Origin: an uncultured Meiothermus sp.
GTDB lineage: Bacteria; Deinococcota; Deinococci; Deinococcales; Thermaceae
Length of the DNA: 32,655 nucleotides
Assembly (NCBI RefSeq): GCF_937863175.1
Contig: NZ_CALMCQ010000205.1
Coordinates: 1-32,655 of the forward strand
Reading direction: 5' to 3'
Below the pieces are notes generated by a model that was not told the origin of the DNA, made no database searches, and worked only from the letters and a program-made list of their open reading frames with translations. Of this stretch, positions 383-27,645 are shown piece by piece. Each line of letters begins with the position of its first letter. Within the stretch, counting starts at the first letter, position 1. A program made the position numbers and the translations under genes.

Positions 383-2248
383 CTACAGCGTCAGGGTAAT
401 GGTAATGGGGTTGACCGGCTGGATGCTGTAAATCTGGCCCTGCATCCCCACCCCAGTGATGTTGTCGCTAATGTTCAGGTTTCCACCGCTAAAAGCGCCG
501 CAAAATGCGTTGAGCGTGACCGTGTAGGTTCCCGGCGCAAGCGGGGTGGGAGGATCGGTCTGGGCTCGAGGTTGGAAGGTGCGCTCCGAGCCAAGGTAGA
601 AGGCCATATCGGAGACCCCCGAACCGCCGTTGCGCTGGAACGAGACCTGGTACAAAGCATTGTAGCCGGGCTGGGCCGAGGCGCTGTCGCTCCAGGTGGC
701 AGTCAGGCTGGCCGCGCTATAGCTGCCGCCGTTGCTGAGGTTGCTCCAGGCCACGTTGCCGAGTGCGAAGGCCGAGCCACTGCCATCTATGCTGCCGTTG
801 CCGTCGGCGTCAATGTTCAGGGTGTAGCGCTTGCCGGGTTCGACATCGAAGTTGTTGGCAAAGTAGGTTCCCGGCGCCAGCTCACTAAGCGTCGCGGTTT
901 TGCCCGCATTATCGCTGATGGTGATCTTGGCCCCGGCGGCAGGCTCGGCGTTATCCAGATCGCCGTCGGCGTTGGGGATACCCTTCTCGAGCTGCATGAA
1001 GGCTACCCCGCCGGGCTGCAACAGTGCGTTGGCCCTGAAGAAGCCCTCGGGGGCGGGGGCCACGCGAATCGGGAGGGGGTTGGTGGCGGCAGGCCGTACC
1101 AACTGAACCGAACTGCCCGGACACGGCCCCGGGGTGCGGCTGTAGTTCTTGCCGTCGAGGCCGATCAGGTCGTCCTCGTAGACTCTGCCGATATCTATAA
1201 CCTTCGCGCCCGGTTTGGGAATCAGATTGCCATGGTTATCTACAAAGGTGTCGGTGTAGGTCTTGGTGGCCGTGAAGTTGACCGGCACGCCTTTTTCTAC
1301 AGTGATTTCGGCTTGTCCAAGGCGGTTGGTTACCGCCCGCAACCCTGGACGCGCCGTAACCACTGCGTCTGCCAGCGGCCCAAAGCGGTTGCGCACCTCG
1401 ACCAACACACACTCCTGATCCTGCACTGCCGGGGCCCCGCCATACCAGGAGAAGTGGCGGATGCTGGCCCGCAGCACCGGGGTGGTGCCGTCCACGCTCG
1501 AGCGCTCCACCGTGCCTTCTACAAAGTCTTCCCAGCGCCCGGTCTGGGGGTTGTAGGCGTAGCAGTGAATTTTGTCACCGATTTTGTAGCGGCTGCGCAG
1601 CTCGGGCGGGATAGGCAGTTCGACAATCGCGCTCGAGCCGGGCTTGAGGTTGATGCGGCGGTTCTGCGAATCCAGGATGCTGAACTCGGCAAAGGTTACT
1701 GCCGCTAGTGGGGTGGGGCTGGCGCCCCCCGCAATCAGATCGCCGGGCAGGGCTGAGTCTTCCTTGGTCGGATCGAGCGGGGTCACCACCACCCGCAGGT
1801 TGGTATCAGCAGTGTTCAGGCTGTTCGGCTGGAAGATCACCGCGTAGGGGCCAGCCTCGGTGCGCTGGAAGAGGGTGCGAGCCTGGGTGGGGTTGTAGCC
1901 CTGTTCGGTTCCTTCTTTTTTCAGCGCTACCACGATGGCCTGTGCGCTGCTGGTGGACTCGGCCAGCCCATGCCCAGGTGCGTAGCCCGCTTTTTCCAGG
2001 TCGACCTTGACCAGTCCCGGCGGCAGGTTCTGCAAAATGAACTCACCCCGGCTGTCGGTGGTGGTGGTCTGACTGCTCCCCACCACCGTGACCTTCACGC
2101 CGCTAAGCCGTGCCCCGGTGCCGATATCGGTGACCAGCCCGGCAACGGTATTGGGAGCGCTGGAGCCGTTATTTCCACCGCCACCGTTGTTGCCGCCACA
2201 AGCAGCCAGCAAACCCAACAAAGCAGCCATCCATAGGGTCTTCCTCAT
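383..2248 (-). CDS. Large exported lipoprotein with a carboxypeptidase-regulatory-like domain
   Basis: A 621-residue lipoprotein. The N-terminus is a type II signal with lipobox LLAAC (lipidated Cys17), then a Gly/Asn linker. Residues about 33-110 look like a carboxypeptidase D regulatory-like beta-sandwich (VAGLVTDIGTGARLSGVKV, then DSRGEFILQNLPPG). A middle domain (about 115-275) reads like a ZU5/FAM171-type beta domain (ELPIPPELRSRYKIGDKI, then HFSWYGG). The C-terminal half is beta-rich with Asp/Asn-rich turns (NIDADGNGSIDG) that could bind calcium. It probably sits on the outer face of the envelope. It is the last gene of the operon, 12 bases after the preceding stop. The start is set by an ideal AGGAGG ribosome site six bases upstream. 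The domain names come from pattern memory and the substrate is unknown. Confidence 0.8.
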   Translation of the reverse strand: MRKTLWMAALLGLLAACGGNNGGGGNNGSSAPNTVAGLVTDIGTGARLSGVKVTVVGSSQTTTTDSRGEFILQNLPPGLVKVDLEKAGYAPGHGLAESTSSAQAIVVALKKEGTEQGYNPTQARTLFQRTEAGPYAVIFQPNSLNTADTNLRVVVTPLDPTKEDSALPGDLIAGGASPTPLAAVTFAEFSILDSQNRRINLKPGSSAIVELPIPPELRSRYKIGDKIHCYAYNPQTGRWEDFVEGTVERSSVDGTTPVLRASIRHFSWYGGAPAVQDQECVLVEVRNRFGPLADAVVTARPGLRAVTNRLGQAEITVEKGVPVNFTATKTYTDTFVDNHGNLIPKPGAKVIDIGRVYEDDLIGLDGKNYSRTPGPCPGSSVQLVRPAATNPLPIRVAPAPEGFFRANALLQPGGVAFMQLEKGIPNADGDLDNAEPAAGAKITISDNAGKTATLSELAPGTYFANNFDVEPGKRYTLNIDADGNGSIDGSGSAFALGNVAWSNLSNGGSYSAASLTATWSDSASAQPGYNALYQVSFQRNGGSGVSDMAFYLGSERTFQPRAQTDPPTPLAPGTYTVTLNAFCGAFSGGNLNISDNITGVGMQGQIYSIQPVNPITITLTL

Positions 2249-2260
2249 AGTTTCCTCCTG

Positions 2261-3382
2261 TTACCTGCGCACCACCACCACATCAAACGAAAGGCCATCT
2301 ATCGGAATCGCCCGTGTCACCCCCTTGCGCTCCAGGTCGAAGACCACCAGATGCCCCTCGGTACCGCTGCTGACGATATAGGCCAGCCTGCCATCAGGAG
2401 ACAGGGCGGCATGGGTGGGATTGACAAAAATTCTGCTCCCGAGCTCGAGTTGGTGGTTCTGAACCTGGCCCGAAACCAAATCCACCAGCGAGACCGCATT
2501 GGAGTAGTAGTTGAGCGACAAAACCCTTCCCTCCGCTACCTTTAGCATCCCCAATGGCCCTGGGGTGACGGTGAAGCTTTTGGGGCTCGAGGCGGGCGCG
2601 TGCAGGCTGAGGGTGTTGGACTCAAAGTTGGAAACCAGCGCGTTTTCCTCCAACGGCAACACGAAGGCAGGGTCGGAGCCGGTGGGGGCCTCGGACAGGG
2701 TTTGCCAGGTCTGCTCGTCGAGCCAGCGCACCGCGCTGGCCTCGGTGCTGGGCTGGCGGGGGCGCATCGCCACCACCAATCTGGAGCCCACCCGGGCCAC
2801 GTCCACCGCTTCGCTCGCCGCACCGGAAGGCGGCAGATTCCGTGCCCGCACCACCTGAGCACTCAAGAGATCAATCTCGCTCAAACGCCCCTGGCGGATA
2901 TGGGAGACGTAGAGTTTGTTTAAGTCGCTCGAGAACGCAATGCCCACAGGCCGCTCGCCCACGATAAAAGGCTTGGCACCGCCGGGGTTGTGGCAGGCAA
3001 AACAACTCGTTTTTGAGAAGGCGTCCTGGTCAAAGTGCGGCTGGATCAGCGTACCGTCACTGCGCCGCTCGGGCACCGGTGCGGTCAGGAAGGTGCGGAA
3101 AACCTCGAGGCTCCGCACATCCACCTCGGCTACGGCCTGCGAGCCCACCAGCACCACGTAGACCTTGCTGCCATCCGGGTTCAGAATCATCCGGTGGGGC
3201 AGCCCACCCACCGTGATGCGCTTGACGGTGCGGCCCTGCACCGGGTCAATTACCGCGACAGTGCTCGAGCCCGCCTGGCTCACCAGCACCAGGTGTGAAG
3301 CCTGCTGGGACGAGGAACAACCCACCAGTTGAAGCAGCCCGAAAAGAGCGGGCGGGAGGTATCGGATAACAGTCCAGACCAT
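2261..3382 (-). CDS. YncE-like beta-propeller lipoprotein with a haem c site
   Basis: A 373-residue exported protein. A hydrophobic leader ends in lipobox LVGC (Cys22). The rest resembles the YVTN/YncE beta-propeller family, with repeated blades such as VAVIDPVQGRTVKRITVGG and LPHRMILNPDGSKVYVV, and again near the end with AALSPDGRLAYIVSSG. A single CxxCH motif (Cys127, Cys130, His131, in the context SCFACHNPGG) sits in an insertion between early blades and should attach one haem c covalently. Propellers of this kind with a c-type haem are known in other bacteria, so an electron-transfer or redox-sensing role is plausible but not shown. It lies 18 bases after the upstream gene and 12 bases before the downstream lipoprotein, so it is cotranscribed. 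Confidence 0.8.
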   Translation of the reverse strand: MVWTVIRYLPPALFGLLQLVGCSSSQQASHLVLVSQAGSSTVAVIDPVQGRTVKRITVGGLPHRMILNPDGSKVYVVLVGSQAVAEVDVRSLEVFRTFLTAPVPERRSDGTLIQPHFDQDAFSKTSCFACHNPGGAKPFIVGERPVGIAFSSDLNKLYVSHIRQGRLSEIDLLSAQVVRARNLPPSGAASEAVDVARVGSRLVVAMRPRQPSTEASAVRWLDEQTWQTLSEAPTGSDPAFVLPLEENALVSNFESNTLSLHAPASSPKSFTVTPGPLGMLKVAEGRVLSLNYYSNAVSLVDLVSGQVQNHQLELGSRIFVNPTHAALSPDGRLAYIVSSGTEGHLVVFDLERKGVTRAIPIDGLSFDVVVVRR

Positions 3383-3400
3383 GATCTTCTCTCTGGGGGT

Positions 3401-4483
3401 TCACGGCCGCTTGCGGAAGCTGTTCCAGCCCACCCGGTTGGTGCAGGCGGCAAACTGCCACTCGTGCCCGGGCCATACACAGCCCAGGGTGAGCCCCACG
3501 CTGGCGGTGTACTGGAACTTGTAGTAGCTGGTGAGGGGCTGCAGGGTGTAGCGACTGACCCCATCGTCACCCTCACAGTTGCGGATCTGCACCACTACCC
3601 GGGCTTCCTCGGCCTGAAAGCGCACATCGCCCTCGTAGGTGTCGTTTCGGATCTCCAGCACCTTGAACCAGGCCCTCCCCCGCTCGTAGTAGATCAGGTC
3701 TTTCTTGCAGGCCCCCTCGTGGTTGGCGTTCTCGAAGACCGTAGCCAACTCGTAGCCGCCGGGGACGAAACGCAGCCAGCGGTGCTCGCTGCCGTTGTAC
3801 TCGGGCAGATAGAACGCGCCGGTCTGGATGTTGTAAAAACCCAGGTCGGAGCCCGCCGAGGGCGCCCAGGTTCCCAGAAACTCCTGGTATGGCGGGTCGT
3901 CGCCCAGTTGGAACCCTTGGGGCTGGGCGGGCTGCTGGGGCCTGGCCGAGAGGTCGCGCTGGAGCTGCTTGAGCTTGAGCGGGTAGGGGCCGCCCGAGAG
4001 CTCGAGCTGCAAGGTGGGTTCCTTGATAAGCGTCTCGTACCAGGAGAGCCCAGCATTAAAGACCACCAGGTTGTTGGGTAGGGTGAAGGCGCCCGAACGG
4101 GTGCAGTTGTTCACGACCAGGCGGCGCACTCTGGGGCGCAGGGTCAGGAGGTTGTTCTGGATCTCGAGGGTGCCGCTCATGCGGTCGAGGTAGCTGACCT
4201 GGCGGCAGTGGGAGGCGACGCCCTGCGAGTAGTGGTCGAAGGTGAACTGCCCGTTGGCCCGAATCTTGAGCTGGGCCGAGTAGCCCTGGCTGAGGGTGAA
4301 GGTCTCGCCCGTAAAGGTGTTGGTGTAGTCACCGGCGGAGGCCACGGTCTGCTGCCAGATGCCCACCAGCACCGCCGGGACGCCCACGTTGCCCTGGGCA
4401 AAGCCAGCGATCCCGAGGGCCACCCCGCCCCACGCCGCCAGTGCCAGCAGCCTCCGCCACACGATTGCGTTCCTCGAATGCAT
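3401..4483 (-). CDS. Secreted protein with two tandem copies of one domain
   Basis: A 360-residue protein with a type I signal peptide (positive N-terminus, hydrophobic core, likely cleavage after AGFAQG near residue 31). I do not recognise a named family. Two halves share a pattern: GxW near the start (GIWQQT; GTWAPS), then Tyr and a TG-F turn (YTNTFTGETF; YNIQTGAFYL), a hydrophobic strand ending in an F-x-x-G turn, a Cys followed by a basic residue (HCRQ; ACKK), and an Asn-Cys pair near the end (VNNC; IRNC). This suggests an ancestral lipocalin-like or small beta-barrel domain of about 150 residues that was duplicated. Two further cysteines near the C-terminus (GCVWPG, AACTN) may form disulphides. 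The start has a perfect AAGGAGG site. It sits 34 bases after the 61-residue gene and 18 bases before the propeller gene. Confidence 0.75.
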   Translation of the reverse strand: MHSRNAIVWRRLLALAAWGGVALGIAGFAQGNVGVPAVLVGIWQQTVASAGDYTNTFTGETFTLSQGYSAQLKIRANGQFTFDHYSQGVASHCRQVSYLDRMSGTLEIQNNLLTLRPRVRRLVVNNCTRSGAFTLPNNLVVFNAGLSWYETLIKEPTLQLELSGGPYPLKLKQLQRDLSARPQQPAQPQGFQLGDDPPYQEFLGTWAPSAGSDLGFYNIQTGAFYLPEYNGSEHRWLRFVPGGYELATVFENANHEGACKKDLIYYERGRAWFKVLEIRNDTYEGDVRFQAEEARVVVQIRNCEGDDGVSRYTLQPLTSYYKFQYTASVGLTLGCVWPGHEWQFAACTNRVGWNSFRKRP

Positions 4484-4517
4484 ACGGTTCCTCCTTGCCG
4501 GGCCTTACCGGGCTGGC

Positions 4518-4703
4518 CTAATCCGACCGCCGGGTCAGGTTCAGCCCCTCCATCTCCTCGCTGAGGAAGCGGGCCAGCTCGCGGGGGTCGGCGAAGTAGT
4601 GGCGCTCCTCGCCCCGGCTCACCGAGGCCCGCCAGACCTCGCCCTCCGGGGTGGGCTCGTACCAGACCCGCAGCACGTAGACTTGGCTGGCTTTGGGGCT
4701 CAT
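4518..4703 (-). CDS. Small 61-residue protein, unknown function
   Basis: The 61 residues begin MSPKASQVYVLRVWYEP and include GEVWRASVSRGEERHYFADP and ELARFLSEEM. This reads as a compact beta-beta-beta-alpha fold with a C-terminal amphipathic helix. Short proteins with a similar WRxSV...F(A)D...L..FL pattern exist in Chloroflexota and related groups as I recall, some near BTAD-type regulators, but this is unverified. An ATG at 4739 in the same frame would add 12 residues. The 4703 start is preferred because it has GAGGA about nine bases upstream and because the upstream 41-residue gene stops at 4708, four bases before it, suggesting translational coupling. It has no signal peptide, so it is probably cytoplasmic, unlike its neighbours. 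Confidence 0.65.
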   Translation of the reverse strand: MSPKASQVYVLRVWYEPTPEGEVWRASVSRGEERHYFADPRELARFLSEEMEGLNLTRRSD

Positions 4704-4707
4704 CGCG

Positions 4708-4833
4708 TCAGTTCCTCGGGGCGAAATAAGGGTTGTCATAGGTGTCCTTGAGCGCCAGCGGGTGGTGGACGCCCCCCCAGGCCCCGCCGCCTTGCAGGCG
4801 CTCGAGCCGGGCGGGGAGGATGGCTGGTTTCAT
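4708..4833 (-). CDS. Very small 41-residue peptide gene, Gly-rich core
   Basis: This short frame starts at ATG 4833 with GGGGAAAGG just upstream and ends in TGA at 4708, four bases before the next gene. The product begins MKPAILPARLERLQ, has a glycine and tryptophan core (GGGAWGGVHH) and ends DTYDNPYFAPRN. It has no signal peptide and no transmembrane segment. The layout (basic or amphipathic front, Gly/Trp core, short tail) could fit a modified-peptide precursor or a small regulatory peptide, but no modifying enzyme is visible nearby. The coding call rests on the ribosome site, the tight fit between the genes at 4855 and 4703, and readable composition. The function is unknown. Confidence 0.55.
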   Translation of the reverse strand: MKPAILPARLERLQGGGAWGGVHHPLALKDTYDNPYFAPRN

Positions 4834-4854
4834 GGCGGCCTTTCCCCGACCTCG

Positions 4855-5595
4855 CTAGCGCAGCTCGAGGCCCGTCGCCGTAAACTTCAGCCGATCCGGG
4901 CGCACTCCCAGCGCGGTCTCGAGGGCCACCCCCGCGATCCCACGGTAGGTCTCGAGCAGCTCCGGGTCGTTCTGCTCCACCGCCACGGTGTAACCCAGAA
5001 GGGGCAGGGTCGCCATCAGCACCAGGGCCTCGTAAACCCGCTGGCGCTCCGGGTCGGTAAGCCGCTTAAAGGCCTCCGACCCCCCGAAGGCCGCGTCGGT
5101 GTTGGCCTGAAGGTTCATGAGCGCGGTCTCGCTGGGCTCCTGGCCGTAGTGCACCAGGTAGCACACCCCCACCAGGTAGGTGAAGGCCATCGCCACGTTG
5201 TGGGGGCGGCCCAGCCGCCGGGCCTCGGCCTCGAAGGCTTTGAACCCCTCGTTGAAGGCTGTAACCAGCTCCTGCACTTCGCCCGGCTTGTTGCTCAGGC
5301 TCTGGGCAAACTGCCGCACCAGCAGGCGCTGTGCGCCGGGTCGGAAGGCAGTCTGCGGCGCGGTCTGGGCCCGGACGCGGGCCGCAGCTTGCGCGCTATG
5401 GCTGGCATTATTGCGCTGGTTGACCCGCTCGAGGTTCTGCTGGGCGGTGCGCACCGCCGCCGAGTCGAGCTGAACCCTCAGGAAGGAGTTGACGGCGGTC
5501 ATGTTGACACTGGTGTACCCCGAGAACTGCGCGAGGCCCTGGGACAGGATCAGGCCGGCGGCAATGGCCAGAGTGATCGTGAGCGGGTTTTGCAT
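4855..5595 (-). CDS. Exported DUF6683-like protein
   Basis: A 246-residue protein with a type I signal peptide (MQNPLTITLAIAAGLILSQG, cleavage near residue 22). The mature part is mostly helical. Motifs FRPGAQRLLVRQFAQSLS, FEAEARRLGRPHNVAMAF and TDPERQRVYEALVLMATL match my memory of the DUF6683 family, whose role is not known. The length is usual for that family. The start has AAGGAGC seven bases upstream. It lies 12 bases after the fibre-like gene and 21 bases before the 41-residue peptide gene, so all are likely translated from one message. The family name could not be checked here. Confidence 0.7.
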   Translation of the reverse strand: MQNPLTITLAIAAGLILSQGLAQFSGYTSVNMTAVNSFLRVQLDSAAVRTAQQNLERVNQRNNASHSAQAAARVRAQTAPQTAFRPGAQRLLVRQFAQSLSNKPGEVQELVTAFNEGFKAFEAEARRLGRPHNVAMAFTYLVGVCYLVHYGQEPSETALMNLQANTDAAFGGSEAFKRLTDPERQRVYEALVLMATLPLLGYTVAVEQNDPELLETYRGIAGVALETALGVRPDRLKFTATGLELR

Positions 5596-5607
5596 GGGTT
5601 GCTCCTT

Positions 5608-6447
5608 CTAGAGTCGTGCGCAGGTCAGGCGGATGTACAATCGGGTCAGGGTTGCGGTGTTGTTGACGCCCCTGACAAACCACGAGGTGCCATCAAACGG
5701 GATGAAGCGGGTGATGGTGATGTCGCTGTCGGTGGAGTTGTAGTACCCTGCGCCGAGCACGCGGGTACCTGCCGGACAGGTGGCTGTCTGCTCAAAGGTT
5801 CCGTTGGGCTGAATCAGCGGGCCAGGGATATCAAAGGTATTCACGTAACCGATATCCAGACTTCCGTTGACCGTCAAATTGCCTGTGGCCGTGGTGTTAC
5901 TGCCACTCGCAGTGAGCGCCCCACCCGAGACCCGGGCCAGCGATGCCGCGTCGCTGGCCAGCTTGCCGCTCGACACCGCATTGTCTGCCAGTTTGGCCGA
6001 GGAAACGCTGGCACTGCCCAACTTTCCGCTCGTCACCGCGCCGTCGGCCAGCATCCCGCTGGTGATGCCCTCGAGGGCCACCGAGAAGGTGCTGCTGCTC
6101 AGGGCCAGCCCTGCTCCTGCCAGATACGACGTTCCCCCGCTGCCCTGAAGATCATCGCCCCACACCAGTGCCCCGCCCTGGGCTTTGAGCACCTTGCCGT
6201 CGGCCAACGTTCCACCCGTTGAAAGCTTGGGCAGCGTTACCGCACTGTCCGCAATACGTGCAGTTCCAACCGGGGCTTCCAGGGTTTGAATGGCCGAGCG
6301 CAGGATGGTGAAATTCTGGTTCACATCCGCAGATTTGATGGGCGTGTTGGGCGAAAAAGCAATCAAGTCCCCCACCGCCACAGCTACCAGGCCCCCGGCT
6401 ACCATCGCCCCGCCGAGAACGAACATCTTGACTGCTTGCTTTGGCAT
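5608..6447 (-). CDS. Fibre-like exported protein with low-complexity shaft repeats
   Basis: A 279-residue protein. The start at 6447 is chosen over a possible start at 6531 because AAGGAGC lies just upstream and because the longer form would overlap the preceding lipoprotein gene. Residues about 8-28 form an uncleaved or cleaved hydrophobic leader, then FSPNTPIKSADVNQNF, a motif common in exported fibre-like proteins. The middle (about 130-190) is an imperfect repeat of units like ADGAVTSGKLGSAS, ADNAVSSGKLASDA, typical of shafts in tail-fibre and trimeric surface proteins. The C-terminal domain (about 215-279) has two cysteines (CPAGTRVLGAGYY and LTCARL) that probably pair. A surface adhesin or structural role is inferred. 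Ten bases separate it from the upstream gene. Confidence 0.7.
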   Translation of the reverse strand: MPKQAVKMFVLGGAMVAGGLVAVAVGDLIAFSPNTPIKSADVNQNFTILRSAIQTLEAPVGTARIADSAVTLPKLSTGGTLADGKVLKAQGGALVWGDDLQGSGGTSYLAGAGLALSSSTFSVALEGITSGMLADGAVTSGKLGSASVSSAKLADNAVSSGKLASDAASLARVSGGALTASGSNTTATGNLTVNGSLDIGYVNTFDIPGPLIQPNGTFEQTATCPAGTRVLGAGYYNSTDSDITITRFIPFDGTSWFVRGVNNTATLTRLYIRLTCARL

Positions 6448-6457
6448 AGTTGCTCCT

Positions 6458-6586
6458 TTACTGCCACTGCCCTTGATCCCAATTGCTGCTATCCCAGGTA
6501 CCCTTGCTACCGGCCTGACCGCCACCCCCACATGCAGCCAGCAGCACGGCCAAAAAAATCAGGGCTATCATCCACATACGCTTCAT
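6458..6586 (-). CDS. 42-residue lipoprotein with Trp-rich tail
   Basis: Only 42 residues: a lipoprotein signal (MKRMWMIALIFLAVLLAAC, lipid on Cys19), a Gly4 linker, and a 19-residue polar tail containing three tryptophans (GTWDSSNWDQGQW). The mature peptide would be about 24 residues long on a lipid anchor. The start at 6586 has GGAGG five to nine bases upstream and is preferred to an in-frame start at 6652, whose extra residues look non-coding. It lies between the InlB-repeat gene (75 bases away) and the fibre gene (10 bases away). I know no family for it. It could be a small lysis-type or anchor lipoprotein; this is a guess. Confidence 0.65.
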   Translation of the reverse strand: MKRMWMIALIFLAVLLAACGGGGQAGSKGTWDSSNWDQGQWQ

Positions 6587-6661
6587 CGAATCCTCCAGGG
6601 CTTTTGCAGGTAGGAAGTTGGGTGTCGGCAGGAGGAGGCACTCCACCGACACCCCGAGCTT

Positions 6662-9247
6662 CTACTTCTGCACCGTGATGGTGGCTCCGGTAATGGGCAG
6701 ACCGCTTACGGTGGGGCTCCCTTGTGCGCTCAGCGCGGTCAGGTTGATCTGGTAGGTATGGTTGACCGGGGTGGTGTTCTGATCAGTGCCACCGCAGGCC
6801 GCCAGGGTCAGGGCCAGGCCCAGCGCCAGGAAACCCGTCCGCAGGGAGCGCATCCGCCACGCACCCAGGAGCATCAAGGGCAGCAAGGTAAGCAGCAGGG
6901 GCGTGGGCAGGGCCGGGAGGCTCTGGGCCTTCAGCACCGCCGGACGAACCGCCAGCGAGCTGGCAATATCGGCAGCTACCATGAACTGGCTATTGCCCGG
7001 ACTGAGGGCCAGCGCGGTGGACAGGGTGAGGGTGAGGGTGCCGTTGTCGGCACTGAAGGCTCCAGTGGCGATGGGCGTTTCGCCGCTGTCAATCTGGCCG
7101 TTGGCGTTGGTGTCGCGGATCAGCTTGATGGCCGTGAGGTCGAGGTTGTCGTTGCCGCTGCCACTGGCTTGCAGGGTGATGCTCTGCAACTGGGTGGCCT
7201 GCGAGGGGTTGAGGGCAAAGGCCAGCATCGAGACATTGCTCTGGCCCTTGCTGCGGGTGGCATCGGTGGGCGCGTTGGCCGGTCTGGCTACGGCGATGGT
7301 GAGGCTCGCCGCCGGTGCGGTATTGAAGGTAGCTGTAACCGATCTGGCTGCGTCCATCGTGACCGAGCAGGTTCCGGTGCCGCTACAGGCCCCGCCCCAG
7401 CCAGCGAAGGTCGAGCCTGCATCGGCAACCGGGCTCAGGATTACACTGGCTCCCGAGCTGAAGGTGGCGTTGCAGGTCGCACCGCAGTTGATACCCGCAG
7501 GGCTGCTGCTCACGGTACCGCCGCCGGTACCGCCTTTGTTCACCGTGAGCGCGAAGCTGGCCGCAGGGGCCTGGGTGTAGTTCACGCTGGCGGTGGCGCT
7601 GGCGGTGGTCACGGTAACGTTCTGACTGGCCGGGTTGGGATTGTAGGTGGTGCCGCTCACCAGCACACTGGGGGCGGTGACGGTGTAGCTGCCGGTCACC
7701 ACATCGGAGAGCGACTGGCCGGTTCCGCTGAGGATGGTGCGCTGCTGGTTGAAGCCATCCGGGCCGGTGATGGTGAGGGTGGCGCTGTTGCCACTGGGCA
7801 GGCCCGACACTTGCAGGTTGAGGGTACCGAAGCTCTGGGCCGTGTTGAAGGCGGCGGTCGCGGTTTGGGCCGAATTCATCGTCACCGTACAAGTACCCGT
7901 ACCCGTGCAGGCCCCGCTCCAACCGGCGAAGGTAGAGCCGCTGGCGGCGGCTGCACTGAGGGTAACGGTCGTACCTGCACTGAAGGCCGCAGAGCAGGAA
8001 GTGCCGCAGTTGATGCCAGTGGGGTTGCTGGTGACGGTGCCGCTACCGCTCCCGGTTTTGTTTACAGTGAGGTTGAAAGTAGAGACGGGTGCGGTGTTGA
8101 AGGTCGCGGTGACGCTCTGGGCCACGTTCATCGTCACAGTGCAAGTACCGGTACCGCTACAGCCGCCTCCGCTCCACCCAGCAAACACCGATCCCGACGC
8201 GGGTGCGGCGGTCAGCGTTACCGTGGCGCCCTGGGTAAAGCTGGCCGAACAGGTAGCCCCGCAGTTGATACCGGAGGGACTGCTGGTCACGGTTCCCGAG
8301 CCCGTACCGTTTCTGCTGACCGTGAGGGTAAAGGTGGGGGCTGCCGCGGTGTTGAAGCTCTGGGTAGGGCTGTTGAAAGTGCCCGCATCGGTGACAAAAC
8401 GGTAGCGCCAGAAATAGGTGGTGCTGGGGCTGAGGCCGGTGAGGCTGGTGCTGACGCTGGGAAAGTTAAGGGAGGTGTTGGGCACGGTGGCCGGAGGAGT
8501 GGTTAAACCAAAGGAAGTGGTGGTTCCATAATCCACATAAAGCTGGCCACCCTTGAAATAGCTATAAAGATTCACCCCCAGCGTTGCTGTGGTTGCGCCA
8601 ATCCCACTGCTTTGCAGGTTCTGGAAGCTGGCCTGATAGTAAACGGTCACCGGCACAAACGGTGCAACATTGCTCCAGGCTGTCTGGGCCACCGCAGTCA
8701 AGCGGTGACTGGTCGGGCCGGCCAGCCCCAGCAGTTGTCTGTTGTAACGAACCGGCACACGAATATCCACCTGCCAGCCGGGCGCAATCACCGCATAGCC
8801 AAAAAACAAACCCCCACTGGCTCCGGTAGAGGGCGTTTGCGAGCAACCTCCCTGGAAACCAGGGGGGTTGTCGGTAAACTCGATCACCTGGGTGGGGGTC
8901 GTAAACTTGATGGCGTAGCAGCGCACCCGGTTGGTAGTATCAATCGCCAGGGTAGCCCCATCCGGCAGAAAGAAGTCGAAGCCGATGGTGTCGTTGGTAC
9001 ACGGACTAATGTTGGAGCCCACCGCCCGTACATAGCCCACATCGCCCGTCTTGGGGTAGGACGTACTTGGATCGGTAAAAAAGCCGACTTTGTTCTGTGA
9101 GGCAATAGCACTAATGTTGGTTATGGGGCAAATTTGCCATACTGCCACATCGCTTCCATCCAGGTAGGCAGGGGCTGCAAGCGCAACCGTGCTCATGAAG
9201 CCCAACACCCACAAAACACCAAAAGCCAGCCTTCGCATCCCTTGCAC
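6662..9247 (-). CDS. Large exported protein with three InlB-type repeats and an unusual C-terminal membrane tail
   Basis: An 861-residue protein started by GTG at 9247, chosen because AAGGAGGGAG ends three bases upstream; an ATG at 9238 is possible but badly spaced. Order: signal peptide (1-25); a unique domain with Cys40, 83, 110 and 135; an Fn3-like domain (about 205-298); InlB-type 'divergent repeat' domains at about 305-385, 390-468 and 564-645, each with FAGW(S/G)G and four cysteines (INCGxxC...CxGTGTC); a PEGA-like beta domain between the second and third repeats (474-557); a beta domain with an Asp/Asn-rich turn (RDTNANGQIDSGE, about 711-723). Then comes a sorting-signal-like segment (PALPTPLLLTLLPLMLLGAW, Arg), a second hydrophobic stretch ending LTLAACGG (Cys818), and a 40-residue beta tail. 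First gene of the operon. A surface display role is inferred. Confidence 0.8.
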   Translation of the reverse strand: MQGMRRLAFGVLWVLGFMSTVALAAPAYLDGSDVAVWQICPITNISAIASQNKVGFFTDPSTSYPKTGDVGYVRAVGSNISPCTNDTIGFDFFLPDGATLAIDTTNRVRCYAIKFTTPTQVIEFTDNPPGFQGGCSQTPSTGASGGLFFGYAVIAPGWQVDIRVPVRYNRQLLGLAGPTSHRLTAVAQTAWSNVAPFVPVTVYYQASFQNLQSSGIGATTATLGVNLYSYFKGGQLYVDYGTTTSFGLTTPPATVPNTSLNFPSVSTSLTGLSPSTTYFWRYRFVTDAGTFNSPTQSFNTAAAPTFTLTVSRNGTGSGTVTSSPSGINCGATCSASFTQGATVTLTAAPASGSVFAGWSGGGCSGTGTCTVTMNVAQSVTATFNTAPVSTFNLTVNKTGSGSGTVTSNPTGINCGTSCSAAFSAGTTVTLSAAAASGSTFAGWSGACTGTGTCTVTMNSAQTATAAFNTAQSFGTLNLQVSGLPSGNSATLTITGPDGFNQQRTILSGTGQSLSDVVTGSYTVTAPSVLVSGTTYNPNPASQNVTVTTASATASVNYTQAPAASFALTVNKGGTGGGTVSSSPAGINCGATCNATFSSGASVILSPVADAGSTFAGWGGACSGTGTCSVTMDAARSVTATFNTAPAASLTIAVARPANAPTDATRSKGQSNVSMLAFALNPSQATQLQSITLQASGSGNDNLDLTAIKLIRDTNANGQIDSGETPIATGAFSADNGTLTLTLSTALALSPGNSQFMVAADIASSLAVRPAVLKAQSLPALPTPLLLTLLPLMLLGAWRMRSLRTGFLALGLALTLAACGGTDQNTTPVNHTYQINLTALSAQGSPTVSGLPITGATITVQK

Positions 9248-9249
9248 GA

Positions 9250-9259
9250 CTCCCTCCTT
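9250..9259 (-). promoter_or_regulatory. Strong ribosome site deciding a GTG start
   Basis: The minus strand reads AAGGAGGGAG here, the best Shine-Dalgarno match in the block, at correct spacing from the GTG at 9247 and too far from the ATG at 9238. It lies in the 75-base gap after the regulator gene. The same gap holds an AT-rich stretch (about 9263-9278) that could hold a promoter, though no clear -35/-10 pair stands out. Confidence 0.6.
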
Positions 9260-9322
9260 GCTATACCTTCCGATATACGCGGACAGGGTAGGGCAAGCAG
9301 GATGACTGGAGAATGACTGAGG

Positions 9323-12300
9323 CTAGGGAGGGGTTATACCAGCGGTGCGGGCTGCTTCCAGAATTGCTTTGCTAACGGGGTTGTGGCTCAAAAAAGAGTT
9401 TTTGTGTTGCGGGGGAACATGCCGGTTCGCGATATCCAATAGATAGCCAAGCACCTGCTGGAGTTGGGTCATATCGGCTTTGTGGCTGGCCGCCTGGGCC
9501 TGGTAGTGCACCCACAGCACCTCGAGCCTCGTACAACCAGTGGGCCAGTACGCGGCCATCCGCTCGATGGCAGCCTGGCTGTGGCGCAGGGCATCACTGA
9601 GGTTGCGACTTCTTTTGCCTGGCTGGGCCAGCAAAGCGTTGGCCCAAAGGGTATGAGCGGCTATCTCGAGGGCGGGCCAGTGGTTTTCCTGGGCCAGCGC
9701 AAGGGCTTCCCGGATGCTCTGCAAACCCTGCCCCGGGGAACTCAGGCGGGATTTGGCCAGCAGGAAACGGCCATAGGCCAGCCCACGATAACCGGCAAAT
9801 AGTTCCTCGAGCTGCTCTATCCAGGGGCCTGCCTCCTCCCCGCGCTGGTGGGCCAGCAAGAGCCCCAGAATCCGGTAGGTCGCCGCATCGCGTCGGGGCA
9901 GGTCGGGCTCGCTCAAGGCCCGGCCCAGCCAGTCCGAGGCAGTGGCCCACTCCCCCCAGATCCAGTGCAAACAAGCCATCTGGTACTCACTAAAAGCCCG
10001 CGTCCAGCCCCACTCTTCGGGCACAATTTCGAGGGCCCGCTCCAGGGCTTGCTGGGCTTCGGCGTAGCGCTCCAGGTCGTAGTAGCGCAGGGCCAGGTTG
10101 TTAAGGTGGTGCACCTCGCGGCCCACCACCCCCTGCATGCCCTCGAGCAAACACTGGGCCTGGAGCTGGGCTTCCAGCGCAGCCTCGGCATGGCCCAGCG
10201 CCGCCAGACAGACCGCGCGGTTGTGGTGAAAACCTATCTGCACGATGCGGTTGGCAGAACGCCCCAGGATGGGCTCGGCCTGCTGGTAGTAGGCAAGGGC
10301 CTCGCGGTGGCGCTCGAGCTGGTCGTAGGCAATACCCAGGCGCGATGTGCAGATTGCAGCCTGCAGCTCGTCACCGCGTTGCCGATGAAGCTCTATGAGC
10401 TGCTCCAGGGCCTTGATGAGGTCGTGGGTTTTGCGCTGTACAAAAAGCGCCTGGGCCAGGGCGTCCAGCAGCCGCACGCGCAACTCGGGCCGGTCTTCAT
10501 CGCTTAGGCTTTGTAGCCCTTGCAGGGCCGCCTGCTCGGCCTCGGGCCCGTAGCCGTGTTCGCCCAGACGAATGGCCTCGCGCAGCCAGGCCCGGGCCTG
10601 CTGCTCGGGGGTACTGGCCAGAGCCCGCATCCGCTGAATTAGGGCTTCGTGGCGGGAGCCGGTATCAAAGCGGATCATAACCTCACTGAGGGCTTCGTGC
10701 AGGTCAAAGGCGGCCTGCGGGTCGCCCTGGCGATCCAGCTGCTCAATGGCCAGCTGGTAGAAACTGGCAGCCTCGGTGAGCCGGTAGGCGTCCTGGGCCC
10801 TCTGGGCGGCCTGGATTAGAAACGGAGTCGCCCGAGGGGGCTGGCCCTCGAGCCAGTGACCGGCGATGCGGGCCGGATCGGCCTGCCTGCTTTCCAGATA
10901 CAGTGCAATCTGCTGGTGGAGATAGGTCTTAATGCTGGCCGGAACACCGCTCAGGGTGGCCTCGTAGAGCAGGTCGTGGACAAAAGCATTGCCGCGCAAC
11001 AGTTGGGCCGCCTCGAGTTCGGCCCAGGGCTCGAGTAGCTCCAGTGGGGCAGCTTCGAGCACCCGGGCCGCCAGCTCGGGCGAAAAGTCCGGCCCGGCCA
11101 CGGCTGCGGTGCGAATCAGCCGCTGGGCGCTCAGGGAAAGACGTCCCAGGCGTTGCTGAATCAGGGTGAAGATTTTGCTCGAGACCGGCAGGCGTCCCGG
11201 CTTTTGCTGGTCGAGGCTGCCCGACTCCCACAGGCTGCGCAGGGTCTCGAGCAAGAAGAAAGGGTTGCCTCCGGTATGGCGGCCCAGAGCCTGGGCCAGG
11301 GTCTGGGTGCTATCCAGCGGTACCGGCAGCTCGAGGCTCTCCAGCAGGCCCTGAACGGCGGCAACGTCCAGTGGCTGCAGATCAATTCGCACAGCCAGTC
11401 CGCTCTGTACGGCCTGGCTCAACACCTCCTCCATCCCACTTGAAAGCTCGCCAGCACGAAACGACAGGATGGCCCGCACGGGTTCTGTACGCCCCCAGTA
11501 CTGGCTAAACACAAAATGCAGCACCTCGAGGCTGGCTGCATCTACAAATTGCAGGTCATCCAGGAAGACCTGCGCCATCCCCTGGGCAGCGGCCGCTCGT
11601 ACCAGTTCGGCATTGGCCTGGATAAATCGTAGCTTCTCGGCGCGGGACTGAATGGGGGCCTGGGCCGGGCCAAGTTCGGGAAGGATGCGGGCCAGCTCGT
11701 GCTTCACCCAGTCTGGCAAAGCCAGGCCAGAAAACCGTCCAAGTATCTGGCGGCAGGTGCGGCTCTGGGTGGCGTAGGGAATCCCCGCATCGCCAGGACG
11801 GCCTTCAAAGACCACATACTGGCCCCGGCTTCCCAAAAAATCCTGCGCCAGTCGGCTTTTACCCACACCTGGTTGGCCAGTCACCAGGATCGCCTGTCCC
11901 TGAACCCAGGCAGATTCCATTGCGGCCCATTCGGCCTCACGTCCCATAAGCCGGGGTGGGCGCAACACCGAGAGAGGAATTTCTGCCCGCACTTCGGGAT
12001 CGCTGGGTACAAGTTGTGCTCCCTGCTCGATCAGACCGAGCAGTCCCAGAGTTTCGGGCAGCGGGCGCACCGCCATCTCCCGTTCGAGCACGGTCTCACA
12101 ACGCTGGTAGGCCGCTATCGCCGCGCTCCGGTCGCCCAGCAGATACCATAGCCGCATCACCCGGCGGTGCGCTACCTCCGAAAGCAGGTCGTGCTCCAAC
12201 AGACGTTCGGCGTAGACCAGGGCCTCGCGGTACTGCCCGGCCTGCTCGAGGCCATCGGCCAGGGCCAGGAGCGAGTCGCGCCGCAGGTCGGCCAGACGCT

Positions 12301-12760
12301 CGCGCCGAATCAGCAGCCAGTCGTCGAAGTCGGGGCAGTCATCATAGTCGCAGCCCTCGAGCAGGCGCAGTTCGTGCTGCACCACCTCGGCGTGGCGGCC
12401 CGCAAAGTGGGCTACCTCGAGATCCGCCACATCCACATCCAGACCCTGTAGCTCCAGCACATCCCCGCCCAGCACCAGCTCAGCCCCCACCGCCTGCCGC
12501 AGCCGCCGCAGAGCCTGGGACAGGTTGTTGCGGGCAGTGGTCTCGGAGGATTCGGGCCACAGCCGACCCGCCAGTCTGGAACGGGTGGTAGGGCCTTCCA
12601 GGGTTAGATAGGCCAGCACCCCCGCAATTTTGCGCTCGAGTGGGCGCAGCTGGCGGGTCTGGATATGCAAGGCCGGAACGCCCAACAGTTCGAGTCGGCC
12701 TCGAGCGGGAGCGGCCTCGAGTTTTTCCACTGCCTTCGCAGTGCGATTGCGTTCCGGCAC
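9323..12760 (-). CDS. BTAD/AAA/TPR transcriptional regulator (SARP/LAL-like)
   Basis: A 1145-residue cytoplasmic regulator. Residues about 20-110 form a winged-helix DNA-binding domain (RKIAGVLAYLTLEGPTTRSR, then LWPESSETTARNNLSQALRR), followed by the bacterial transcriptional activator domain (about 115-245; LADGLEQAGQYREALVYAER, YQRCETVLEREMAVRPLPET). A P-loop NTPase follows (MGREAEW at 272-278, Walker A GQPGVGKS at 295-302, Walker B-like VFLDDLQFVD near 405). The C-terminal half is many TPR-like helix pairs (for example YYDLERYAEAQQALERALEI). There is no C-terminal LuxR helix-turn-helix; DNA binding is at the N-terminus. Such proteins are ligand- or partner-sensing activators. The GTG start is forced by an in-frame TGA directly upstream. 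It precedes the exported-protein operon on the same strand and is the obvious candidate to control it. Confidence 0.9.
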   Translation of the reverse strand: MPERNRTAKAVEKLEAAPARGRLELLGVPALHIQTRQLRPLERKIAGVLAYLTLEGPTTRSRLAGRLWPESSETTARNNLSQALRRLRQAVGAELVLGGDVLELQGLDVDVADLEVAHFAGRHAEVVQHELRLLEGCDYDDCPDFDDWLLIRRERLADLRRDSLLALADGLEQAGQYREALVYAERLLEHDLLSEVAHRRVMRLWYLLGDRSAAIAAYQRCETVLEREMAVRPLPETLGLLGLIEQGAQLVPSDPEVRAEIPLSVLRPPRLMGREAEWAAMESAWVQGQAILVTGQPGVGKSRLAQDFLGSRGQYVVFEGRPGDAGIPYATQSRTCRQILGRFSGLALPDWVKHELARILPELGPAQAPIQSRAEKLRFIQANAELVRAAAAQGMAQVFLDDLQFVDAASLEVLHFVFSQYWGRTEPVRAILSFRAGELSSGMEEVLSQAVQSGLAVRIDLQPLDVAAVQGLLESLELPVPLDSTQTLAQALGRHTGGNPFFLLETLRSLWESGSLDQQKPGRLPVSSKIFTLIQQRLGRLSLSAQRLIRTAAVAGPDFSPELAARVLEAAPLELLEPWAELEAAQLLRGNAFVHDLLYEATLSGVPASIKTYLHQQIALYLESRQADPARIAGHWLEGQPPRATPFLIQAAQRAQDAYRLTEAASFYQLAIEQLDRQGDPQAAFDLHEALSEVMIRFDTGSRHEALIQRMRALASTPEQQARAWLREAIRLGEHGYGPEAEQAALQGLQSLSDEDRPELRVRLLDALAQALFVQRKTHDLIKALEQLIELHRQRGDELQAAICTSRLGIAYDQLERHREALAYYQQAEPILGRSANRIVQIGFHHNRAVCLAALGHAEAALEAQLQAQCLLEGMQGVVGREVHHLNNLALRYYDLERYAEAQQALERALEIVPEEWGWTRAFSEYQMACLHWIWGEWATASDWLGRALSEPDLPRRDAATYRILGLLLAHQRGEEAGPWIEQLEELFAGYRGLAYGRFLLAKSRLSSPGQGLQSIREALALAQENHWPALEIAAHTLWANALLAQPGKRSRNLSDALRHSQAAIERMAAYWPTGCTRLEVLWVHYQAQAASHKADMTQLQQVLGYLLDIANRHVPPQHKNSFLSHNPVSKAILEAARTAGITPP

Positions 12761-24382: not shown

Positions 24383-24743
24383 GCTTCACCTGTATTCCGA
24401 GCATGGTACTTCAGGGCAATTCACCGTCGCAAGTCGAAGGCCGGTCAAGACTGCGTTATCCAGAAAGTCGGTTGATTCGTGGCCCATATCTGTTTTGCAC
24501 TATAGCCCTTGACCCGTTCCAAACCTGTAGCTTGAGACCTGCCGCAGGGCACCGGCATAGTTGAGACCAACCAAGCGCTGCGGTAAGTGGGTTTGCGACA
24601 TAGACCTGGCCTGTGGAATGGCGGTGTAAGAACCCCTGTGTTCCCTGATAGGCCAGTCAGAACACTCACATACCTCACTTTGACCGCTGTCCGAACCCAG
24701 GGTCTTGCTAAACCGGTATGATATAGGCCAGGGTTTTTGGGCG
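24383..24743. other. Intergenic region between divergent ade and GGDEF genes
   Basis: About 360 bases hold the promoters of two divergent genes. A TATGAT -10-like box at 24717-24722 points right, 21 bases before the ATG at 24744, without a clear -35. For ade, TTGCCC with AATACA 17 bases further is a weak leftward candidate. A 77-codon minus frame (24445-24678) has no ribosome site or recognisable product. No RNA gene signature is visible. Confidence 0.45.
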
Positions 24744-26573
24744 ATGAACCAGAGTCTCCAGGCCCTCGAGGCCCAACTTAACCAGACCCAGACCCATTCG
24801 GAGAAACTGGGGCTGCTGGATCAGCTCTACCAGTTCCTGCGGGTAAGCGATCTGCGCCGGGCCAAAGAGACCGTCGAGGGCATGCTCCTTCTGTCGCAAA
24901 ACACCGCCTATCCGACCGGGCGAGGTCTGGCCCTCAAAAACCTGGGCGATTACCATTTTCGCCAGGGCAGCCTGCCCGCAGCGCAGGGGTGCCTCGAGGA
25001 AGCCCTCTCCATCCTGCGCGGGACGGGCGAGATCAGGGGCGAGGTAGACACCCTCAACGCGCTGGGCAACTTCCACTACTTTCAGGGCAACTTTCCCAGG
25101 GCCCTCGAGTACTACCTGGAGGCCCTGGAGCAAAGCCGCAAGTACGAACACAAAGCGCTGGAATCCAATGCCCTGAACGGGGTTGGCATCATCCAGTACA
25201 CCCTGGGCAACTACCAGGAAGCCACCAAATATTTCCTGCGCAGCCTGGCCCTCAAACGCGAGATCGGCGACCGCCTGACCGAATCGGGCACCCTGAACAA
25301 CCTGGGGCTGGTCTACCTCGAGATGGGCGATTATCCGGGTGCGGTGCAGCTCTACCGCGAAAGCCTGGGTATCAAACAAACCCTGGGCGACCTCCAGGGC
25401 GAGGCCAACGCGCTTTCCAACCTGGGCGTGGTGTTTCAGCGGCTGGGTCGCACCCAGGAGGCCCTCGACTACCACCAGCAGGCCCTGGAGATTGCCGACC
25501 GGCTGGGCAGCCCACAGGTGCGGGCTACCTGCCTGGAAAATCTGGGCCGCTCCCAGGCCATGCTGGGCAACCTGGAACCAGCCCTCGAGCTATTCCAGTC
25601 CTCCAAAGCCCTTCACCGCGAACTGGGCAATCGCCTTGGTGAACTCAGTGTTCTGCTCCAGATTGGCATGGCCTTGGGCCGCCAGGCCCAGACCGATGCG
25701 GCCATCCTGGCCCTGCAGCAGGGGCTCAAGATGGCCGAGGAATTGGGGCCGCAAAAGCCACTGCTCGACTTCCACCAGGCGCTGTCGGGGGTCTTCGAGC
25801 AGATCCAGAAACCAGCACTCGCACTGCACCATCTTAAACAAGCCATCGAAATTGAGCGCAGGCTGCACAAGGAGCAGCAAGCCCAGAGAACCGCTGCTCT
25901 GCTGGCCGGGTTCCAGGTCGAAAAAGCCCGCCAGGAAGCCGAGATTGAGCGCTTGCGCAACACCGAGCTGGCCCGCGCCAACCGCGAACTGGCCCGCGCC
26001 ATCGAAAACCTCAAGGAAGCCGACGCCGAAAAATCGCGCCTGCTGGACAAGCTGCGCCAGCAGTCCCGAGAACTGGAGCGGCTGGCCCGTCAGGATCCCC
26101 TCACCCGGCTTTACAACCGCCGCTATCTGGAGGAAAACCTCGAGCGCGAGTTTGCCGCCTCGAGGCGCTACAAATTCCCCCTCAGCGTGGCCCTGGTGGA
26201 CATTGACCACTTCAAACAGATCAACGACTCTTTCTCGCACCAGATCGGGGATGACGTGTTGCGGCTGGTAGGGCAAATTCTCGAGTCCAGTTGCCGTGGG
26301 GTAGATTTTGCCTCCCGCTATGGCGGCGAAGAATTTGCCCTGGTCTTCCCCCAGACCGACCTGGTAGGCGCCCTGATCGCCTGTGAGCGGGTACGTCAGC
26401 GCATTGCAGGTTATGACTGGAGCGATATTCACCCCCGCCTCGCGGTCACGGTAAGCATCGGCGTGGGCAGCGACCCTACCCTTTCCAATCACGAAAAACT
26501 CCTCTCTGCCGCCGATCAGCAACTCTATGCCGCCAAACGGGCCGGACGAAACCGGGTTTTTCCACCGACATAG
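24744..26573 (+). CDS. TPR-repeat diguanylate cyclase (GGDEF)
   Basis: A 609-residue soluble protein. ATG 24744 is chosen over an upstream TTG at 24705, whose codons overlap the TATGAT box. Residues about 50-390 form some eight TPR repeats (for example ALEYYLEALEQSRKYEHKAL, YQEATKYFLRSLALKREIGD), the Rapsyn/LGN-like type that binds protein partners. A coiled coil (about 395-455, rich in Glu, Arg, Ala) leads into a GGDEF domain (about 455-609): DPLTRLYNRRYLEE, DIDHFKQINDSFSHQIGD, active-site GGEEF (527-531). An inhibitory I-site RGVD (518-521) lies exactly five residues before GGEEF, so both synthesis of cyclic di-GMP and product inhibition are expected. No transmembrane segment is seen; the signal is probably a bound protein. 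Confidence 0.92.
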   Translation: MNQSLQALEAQLNQTQTHSEKLGLLDQLYQFLRVSDLRRAKETVEGMLLLSQNTAYPTGRGLALKNLGDYHFRQGSLPAAQGCLEEALSILRGTGEIRGEVDTLNALGNFHYFQGNFPRALEYYLEALEQSRKYEHKALESNALNGVGIIQYTLGNYQEATKYFLRSLALKREIGDRLTESGTLNNLGLVYLEMGDYPGAVQLYRESLGIKQTLGDLQGEANALSNLGVVFQRLGRTQEALDYHQQALEIADRLGSPQVRATCLENLGRSQAMLGNLEPALELFQSSKALHRELGNRLGELSVLLQIGMALGRQAQTDAAILALQQGLKMAEELGPQKPLLDFHQALSGVFEQIQKPALALHHLKQAIEIERRLHKEQQAQRTAALLAGFQVEKARQEAEIERLRNTELARANRELARAIENLKEADAEKSRLLDKLRQQSRELERLARQDPLTRLYNRRYLEENLEREFAASRRYKFPLSVALVDIDHFKQINDSFSHQIGDDVLRLVGQILESSCRGVDFASRYGGEEFALVFPQTDLVGALIACERVRQRIAGYDWSDIHPRLAVTVSIGVGSDPTLSNHEKLLSAADQQLYAAKRAGRNRVFPPT

Positions 26574-26637
26574 GGCGGCTGCCGTAGAAAGTACCCCCCA
26601 CACTCCGAACCCAGTCGCGGAAAACAGGCGTTTTAAA

Positions 26638-26653
26638 TGCACTCAGGAGTGCA
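26638..26653. repeat. Palindrome TGCACTC-AG-GAGTGCA
   Basis: A perfect 7-base inverted repeat with a two-base centre, 108 bases before the psuG start and 65 bases after the GGDEF stop. It could be a regulator site; it is not followed by a T-run. No second copy was noticed. Confidence 0.35.
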
Positions 26654-26657
26654 ACCC

Positions 26658-26671
26658 GGCGGAAAACCGCC
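26658..26671 (+). terminator. Small hairpin GGCGG-AAAA-CCGCC after the GGDEF gene
   Basis: A five-base GC stem with an AAAA loop lies 85 bases after the GGDEF stop. There is no U-tract, so termination is only possible, not shown. Confidence 0.25.
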
Positions 26672-26748
26672 CTGGATCCATGGTTCAAATGGGCGCAACC
26701 AATCCTGCCGTTCCTTTGCACTTTACTCGACTTTTTTCGCTCCCGCCG

Positions 26749-26760
26749 TATGCTGTTCCC
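26749..26760 (+). promoter_or_regulatory. -10 box of a leaderless psuG promoter
   Basis: TATGCT (26749-26754) ends six bases before ATG 26761 and no Shine-Dalgarno sequence intervenes. A leaderless message is likely. The -35 region is weak. Confidence 0.5.
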
Positions 26761-27645
26761 ATGCGCCTGCATCCAGAAGTGGCCCACGCCCTGCACACCA
26801 GGCAAGCGGTGGTAGCCCTCGAGTCCACCGTCATCACCCACGGCCTGCCACGCCCGCTGAACCTCGAGCTGGCCCGCAAACTCGAGGACACCGTACGGCA
26901 GGTCGGAGCCACCCCCGCCACCATCGCCATCCTGCCGGGTGAAGTGGTGGTGGGTCTGACCCGGGATGAACTCGAGGCCATCGCCGCCGACGACACTGCC
27001 GACAAGGCCAGCTTGTGGAACCTGGGTGCACTGGTAGCCCAGGGCAGAAGCGCAGGCACCACCGTGGCTTCTACCACTTTCCTGGCCCACCAGGCCGGGA
27101 TCCGGGTCTTTGCCACCGGGGGGATTGGCGGCGTACACCCTCATCCCTACGACGAGTCGGCAGATCTGCTCGAGCTCTCCCGCACCCCCATCGTGGTGGT
27201 ATCGGCGGGCCCCAAAAGCATCCTCGACCTGGCTGCCACTTTGGAGCGCCTGGAGTCGCTGGGAGTGGCCCTCTTGGGATACCAGACCCACCACCTGCCA
27301 GCCTTTCACAGCTCCACCAGCCCCTACCCCCTGCCAGCCCGCGTCGAGTCGGCCCGCGAGGCCGCCCAGGCTTTTCATACCGCCAGGGAATTGAGGCTGC
27401 CTGGGGCCACCCTGGTACTCAACCCCATTTCCAAAGGGCTGGACTTCGACCAGGTGCAGCGCTGGGTCGAACAGGCCACCCAGGAGGCCGCCAGGGCCGG
27501 GGTGGGCGGCAAGGCCCTGACCCCCTTCCTGCTGCGGCGCATCTCCGAGTTGAGTGAGGGCCAGACCGATGAGGCCAATCTGCGTCTGCTGGAAGAAAAC
27601 GCTCGTCTGGCTGCGCAAATTGCACTGGCCCTGGCCCAGCTATAG
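26761..27645 (+). CDS. psuG: Pseudouridine-5'-phosphate glycosidase
   Basis: A 294-residue enzyme that reversibly breaks the C-C bond of pseudouridine 5'-phosphate to uracil and ribose 5-phosphate. The catalytic residues known for E. coli PsuG line up by motif and spacing: Glu21 in ALESTVITHGLP, Asp135 in ESADLLEL, Lys152 in SAGPKSILDL (17 residues apart as in E. coli). Other family motifs are TVASTTFLAHQAGIRVFATG and GGVH, and NPISKG near the end. The start at 26761 is chosen over upstream in-frame codons because the -10 box lies just before it and the family begins here. The partner kinase PsuK is not in the window. Confidence 0.95.
   Translation: MRLHPEVAHALHTRQAVVALESTVITHGLPRPLNLELARKLEDTVRQVGATPATIAILPGEVVVGLTRDELEAIAADDTADKASLWNLGALVAQGRSAGTTVASTTFLAHQAGIRVFATGGIGGVHPHPYDESADLLELSRTPIVVVSAGPKSILDLAATLERLESLGVALLGYQTHHLPAFHSSTSPYPLPARVESAREAAQAFHTARELRLPGATLVLNPISKGLDFDQVQRWVEQATQEAARAGVGGKALTPFLLRRISELSEGQTDEANLRLLEENARLAAQIALALAQL

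Follow-up and report, generated by a model that had tools for sequence, protein, structure and literature searches.

SARP activators are known chiefly as antibiotic switches of Streptomyces. Large SARPs share a domain order of BTAD, nucleotide-binding and TPR domains (PMC10972967), and the box of AfsR comprises 22 bp in two 11-bp direct repeats that overlap the −35 region, where a side-by-side dimer recruits RNA polymerase (PMC10936776). The ‘SARP’ described in Deinococcus is a two-component response regulator of another architecture (PMC3564903), and a literature search for BTAD regulators of the genera Meiothermus and Thermus returned nothing relevant. The locus analysed here shares its regulator architecture, its predicted operator layout and a promoter with a weak −35 with the large SARPs AfsR, PolY and RslR3 (PMC10972967, PMC10936776). 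It differs from them in belonging to Deinococcota instead of Actinomycetota, in having exported proteins instead of antibiotic clusters as predicted targets, and in having several operators per locus with an operator sequence that differs by paralogue.

The window, i.e. the whole stretch of 32,655 nucleotides that was analysed, is contig C205 of a 3.55 Mb Meiothermus genome (488 contigs, 92% complete). An operon on the minus strand at 383-12760 comprises a BTAD-AAA-TPR regulator (g1) and eight well-supported downstream genes (Table 1). A preliminary description of this DNA had proposed nine tightly packed, mostly exported genes under one regulator. The location of all genes on a single strand was confirmed, as was the packing: with starts chosen by their ribosome sites, the gaps from g1 to g10 are 75, 75, 10, 12, 21, 4, 34, 18 and 12 nt, i.e. 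4-34 bases apart from the two of 75 that flank g2. Seven downstream products (g2, g3, g4, g5, g8, g9 and g10) are exported as claimed, judging from signal peptides or lipoboxes recognized by eye. The count of nine had to be lowered to eight, in a copy that is reduced relative to its relatives. Two tiny non-exported genes had been reported, of which the 61-residue g7 is real and conserved. The 41-aa reading frame g6 is probably not a gene, because it is without counterpart in any relative and g7 starts there about 10-20 nt past the DUF6683 stop, and it was rejected; the window has about 120 bp extra between g5 and g7. No Pfam or NCBIfam model matched g3, g4, g7 or g8 above cut-off, and no system model covers the set.

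Table 1. Features of the operon and of its predicted promoter (positions in the window)
Feature	Positions	Strand	Remark
g1, BTAD-AAA-TPR (large-SARP/AfsR-like) predicted transcriptional activator, 1145 aa	9323..12760	-	Pfam matches and orthologues
Predicted operator, 11-bp direct repeats CAGTCATTCTC and CAGTCATCCTG	9298..9319	-	core unique in window
Predicted −10 element TACCCT	9285..9290	-	fixed distance from operator; window match to full pattern
g2, exported, divergent InlB repeats, 861 aa	6662..9247	-	PF18998
Hairpin GGGTGTCGG...CCGACACCC	6620..6655	-	directly past g2; in all relatives read
g3, 42-aa Trp-tailed mini-lipoprotein	6458..6586	-	also upstream of g4 in L027; in L115 locus
g4, exported, fibre-like, 279 aa	5608..6447	-	86% relative in L027
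g5, exported DUF6683 protein	4855..5595	-	PF20388, E=2.5e-79
41-aa ORF (g6), probably no gene	4708..4833	-	without counterpart in any relative
g7, cytosolic, 61 aa, conserved as core partner	4518..4703	-	relatives in 27/111 genomes
g8, exported two-domain beta protein, lipocalin-like barrel	3401..4483	-	alignment with conserved cysteines
g9, YncE-like beta-propeller lipoprotein, one CxxCH	2261..3382	-	PF21783, 33.1 bits (cut-off 27.1)
g10, large lipoprotein with CarboxypepD_reg, 621 aa	383..2248	-	PF13620, 7.1e-13

The domain assignment given earlier for the regulator was borne out by Pfam matches above cut-off to BTAD (PF03704, E=1.3e-10) and, in the centre and C-terminus, to AAA_16 (2.9e-14) and TPR_12, and by an intact Walker A motif (GQPGVGKS). 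BTAD combined with a central nucleotide-binding domain and C-terminal TPR is the architecture of a large SARP, and the predicted box described below, with two 11-bp direct repeats overlapping −35 at a fixed −10 offset, has the layout of a large-SARP operator. An antibiotic cluster, typical as a target of SARPs and not an architectural requirement, was not found among the targets, which are exported proteins and lipoproteins. At the N-terminus no separate wHTH domain was matched by Pfam. Orthologues at 60-75% are present in 11/18 Meiothermus genomes. An alignment of regulators contains a conserved putative recognition helix that varies along with the box, reading ARNNL[A/S/V]Q at loci with GTCAT repeats and ARNN[L/M]RQ at loci with GTCAC or CTAAC repeats. 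This correlation is clean, though the sample is small.

Upstream of g2, at 9285-9319, lies the direct repeat CAGTCATNCTC-CAGTCATNCNN, 22 bp long, with TANNNT behind it at a fixed distance, a predicted regulatory box that the preliminary description had overlooked. Its core CAGTCATCCTCCAGTCATGC was spotted by reading upstream regions, where it precedes the genes for a subtilase, a small lipoprotein, g2 and sometimes g8. The window contains one copy (9300-9319; 0 expected in shuffled sequence), and the second 11-bp repeat stops seven bases short of the −10 hexamer. By computational comparison, the operator, its geometry and its pairing with the regulator all recur. Within the genus the exact box occurs in 11/11 genomes with a regulator orthologue and in 0/7 without (Fisher 3e-5). 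Across the order the exact core occurs in 14 of 111 genomes, all 14 with a regulator homologue (E<=1e-150), i.e. in 14/23 genomes with such a homologue versus 0/88 without (Fisher 4e-12); the genomes are mutually related, so these Fisher values overstate independence. The spread of the box over genera and paralogous loci is a stronger argument than the p-values. A reversed control pattern had 0 matches across the 111 genomes. In nine genomes a regulator homologue is present and the exact box absent, as might be expected if paralogues differ. In two other genera (G068 and G078) boxes lie directly behind the respective regulator genes. TANNNT stands exactly nine bases past the box in 49/52 distinct boxes and at none of the adjacent offsets, and the full 33-bp pattern had 45 matches in 18 genomes versus 0 for the control. 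A scan of the operon for sigma-70 −35/−10 elements found no pair, which is consistent with an activator-dependent promoter and also with chance.

For the neighbourhood comparison, 101 genomes of the order were searched for relatives of the window proteins, and the loci of these relatives were compared. The homologues are not scattered: a gene order that runs from the regulator through subtilase lipoprotein, small lipoprotein, g2, a variable slot, g7, g8 and g9 to g10 was found in most of the 11/18 Meiothermus genomes with a regulator orthologue and in a single genome from a sister genus. As the expectation of scattered homologues failed, the unit is real, and on this comparison of sequences its gene order is conserved beyond chance. 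The proposal of an undescribed system with conserved neighbours and one regulator is therefore supported by gene order together with a regulator-linked promoter box. Individual members are absent in places, g8 is present in one or two copies, and the slot between g2 and g7 holds g3 and g4, DUF6683, both, another lipoprotein, or nothing. Between regulator and g2 the relatives have an S8 subtilase lipoprotein and often also a lipoprotein of about 135 aa, both of which are missing from the window. No subtilase orthologue was found in the source genome (92% complete), where the best match is a 51% paralogue. Some relatives have an 11th gene downstream of g10, encoding a 640-aa exported TPR protein; in the window, positions 300-382 on the minus strand encode FWLLAALAQ, tentatively a remnant of the signal peptide of this gene, though the match is short. 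The window copy may be partly decayed, because the subtilase is missing and this possible remnant is present. Two genomes (G094, G101) have a second regulator copy (48%) that heads the operon, the orthologue heading its own subtilase, and in G080 operon and regulator are on separate contigs and the regulator reads in two frames. A TPR-GGDEF gene and a psuG-like gene, which adjoin the regulator in most relatives together with a gene for a 211-aa TM protein (MARWLM...), lie in the window at 24705-26573 (+) and 26527-27645 (+), about 12 kb from the regulator; the operon or the DNA around it has therefore been rearranged.

In Meiothermus, the genes led by a box encode the subtilase, the small lipoprotein, g2, the g8 lipoprotein and two further products, a DUF11 protein and an exported protein of 450 aa. 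The genes for the last two are unlinked to the locus and are found on contigs C193 and C231 of the source genome. Wherever the ORF is clear, the Meiothermus target looks exported. Elsewhere the box marks a few promoters per genome, nearly all driving exported genes and some of them unlinked. A common C-terminal end, comprising a TM segment, a basic stretch, a lipobox and a tail, is shared by g2 and the DUF11 protein. It resembles the lipo-invert model NF058595 at 16-22 bits, below the cut-off (for g2 E=1.5e-4 and 22 bits, under the curated cut-off of 37 bits).

Several calls made earlier on individual products were upheld. The InlB repeats of g2 matched Pfam in divergent form, and g5 is a full-length DUF6683 member far above the gathering score (266.9 bits vs 23.6). 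The g5 model is all-helical (pLDDT 78.9); a fold search gave no PDB match with E<=0.001, the best matches being meaningless, and a literature search on DUF6683 found no relevant paper. A box of this type also lies upstream of a g4 relative in L115 (57% over the N-terminal part). Relatives of g7 often have a regulator paralogue and a subtilase no more than about 10 kb away, so that g7 and the S8 subtilase are recurrent partners beyond Meiothermus. The model of g8 consists of beta barrels, with a Foldseek probability of 1.00 to VtrC (5kew), yet an E-value of 0.03; at about 10% identity this is a weak lipocalin-like signal of the VtrC and ToxS type of periplasmic domain, and the locus differs from those systems in having no VtrA/ToxR partner. 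A search for g8 on plasmids gave no match. The former reading of g9 as a haem propeller stood in part: it is YncE-like and aligns over the propeller with the surface-layer YVTN protein 1l0q (E=2.5e-17), to which it adds a lipobox and one inserted CxxCH that is conserved in relatives, and this motif alone makes no redox complex. In g10, which also matches DUF4249 and is conserved at 80-90% in relatives, a conserved HFSWYG motif is perhaps akin to the HFS motif seen in ZU5-like domains. Two fusions in other genera are a hint of shared function: DUF6683 is joined to a domain resembling the 450-aa box-led protein (L030:923-2527, +), and a g8 homologue is joined to a small-lipoprotein-like domain (L036:2-1465, −). 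The hairpin past g2 is without a T run and carries in its loop CCTCC, which resembles an anti-Shine-Dalgarno sequence; it is possibly an attenuator or a processing site.

The locus is best explained as an exported-protein regulon under a locus-specific large-SARP (AfsR-type) activator, to which we assign a probability of roughly 0.78. From the spacing of repeats and −10, the AfsR layout and the lack of a sigma-70 pair, the regulator is therefore predicted to act like a large SARP. The ATPase/TPR part would be switched on by a ligand, and two N-terminal wHTH-BTAD domains would sit side by side on the two 11-bp repeats, which overlap the −35 region. The bound regulator would then bring RNA polymerase to a promoter with a −10 and no usable −35. 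In the source genome the three predicted promoters would serve g2-g10 and the two unlinked exported genes. The products would be surface lipoproteins and exported proteins, held in place by an N-terminal lipobox or by the C-terminal TM-plus-lipobox tail, with the subtilase lipoprotein as a recurrent member in relatives and g7 as a small cytosolic partner. Binding and activation by the regulator and the envelope location of the products are what we infer in this scheme.

The preliminary description had suggested that the exported proteins act together, as one surface structure or as a redox-linked complex. The co-directional g8-g9-g10, whose order is conserved, and the CxxCH of g9 are in keeping with it, but the variability of the slot between g2 and g7, the many genomes in which genes are missing, paralogous loci with different cargo and the box-bearing targets in trans leave a physical complex unsupported, and no electron-transfer partner was found. 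We consider it unlikely and rejected it as the lead reading, since the cargo varies and some targets lie in trans. That the window operon is a decaying, functionless remnant would fit the missing subtilase, the trace of the 11th gene and the extra DNA between g5 and g7. However, the remaining ORFs are all intact, box and −10 are perfect, g9 and g10 are 77-90% conserved and the genome is merely 92% complete, which makes a remnant quite unlikely.

A locus for inter-bacterial interaction or defence, in which a STAND-type sensor would control variable exported effectors, is suggested by the STAND-like ATPase with TPR, the fast-changing cargo slot and a match of the relatives' subtilase to an anti-phage S8 model. 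This match reaches 22 bits against a cut-off of 900 and is the sole one, so an anti-phage role was rejected; furthermore, no toxin, immunity or nuclease domain was found and the products resemble lipoproteins, and we regard defence as very unlikely. The box might also be bound by a different, unlinked transcription factor, the regulator gene being a mere neighbour. This is highly improbable given that the box tracks the regulator across genera and loci, that its sequence shifts with the putative recognition helix and that its geometry is that of SARP operators. The unit of a SARP-type activator, its predicted operator and its predicted exported-protein regulon is real, conserved and, it appears, undescribed. 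From sequence, SARP architecture and operator layout are predicted to switch exported and surface proteins in a deep-branching thermophile group. Four function-unassigned families (DUF6683, the 61-aa family, g8 and the 450-aa exported protein) are placed in one predicted regulon.

At distant paralogous loci the geometry is retained and the repeat is altered to GTCAC or CTAAC, in step with the putative recognition helix. The relaxed pattern GTCA-N7-GTCA-N12-TANNNT had 21 matches in 477 kb of distant loci, versus 0 or 1 in each of 22 permuted controls. The geometry is kept at Thermus-type loci (the genus labelled ‘g2’) and at loci of family f5, and one locus of another family (L127) has five such promoters, upstream of exported genes and of its own g7. 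When identical 5-mers spaced 11 bp apart were sought at this distance without presetting their sequence, GTCAC came up most often, and CTAAC came up at one pair of loci that look orthologous. Tentatively, at slightly less than even odds, Deinococcales may hold diversified SARP-type activators, each with a private operator, as parallel and mutually insulated switches of cell-surface remodelling. The GTCAT, GTCAC and CTAAC classes would then depend largely on a single position of the recognition helix. Each activator would command a subtilase lipoprotein, a 61-aa partner and variable exported cargo. Such paralogous operator classes might yield portable promoters for thermophiles.

Some box targets at Thermus-type loci are not exported. 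At L115, L117 and L118 the box drives a cupin gene, a gene for an exported protein of about 138 aa and a methyltransferase-like gene, and not the Meiothermus cargo. The CTAAC-class operators, with the same geometry, are located at L121:5361 (+) and L130:6778 (+), near divergent regulator paralogues.
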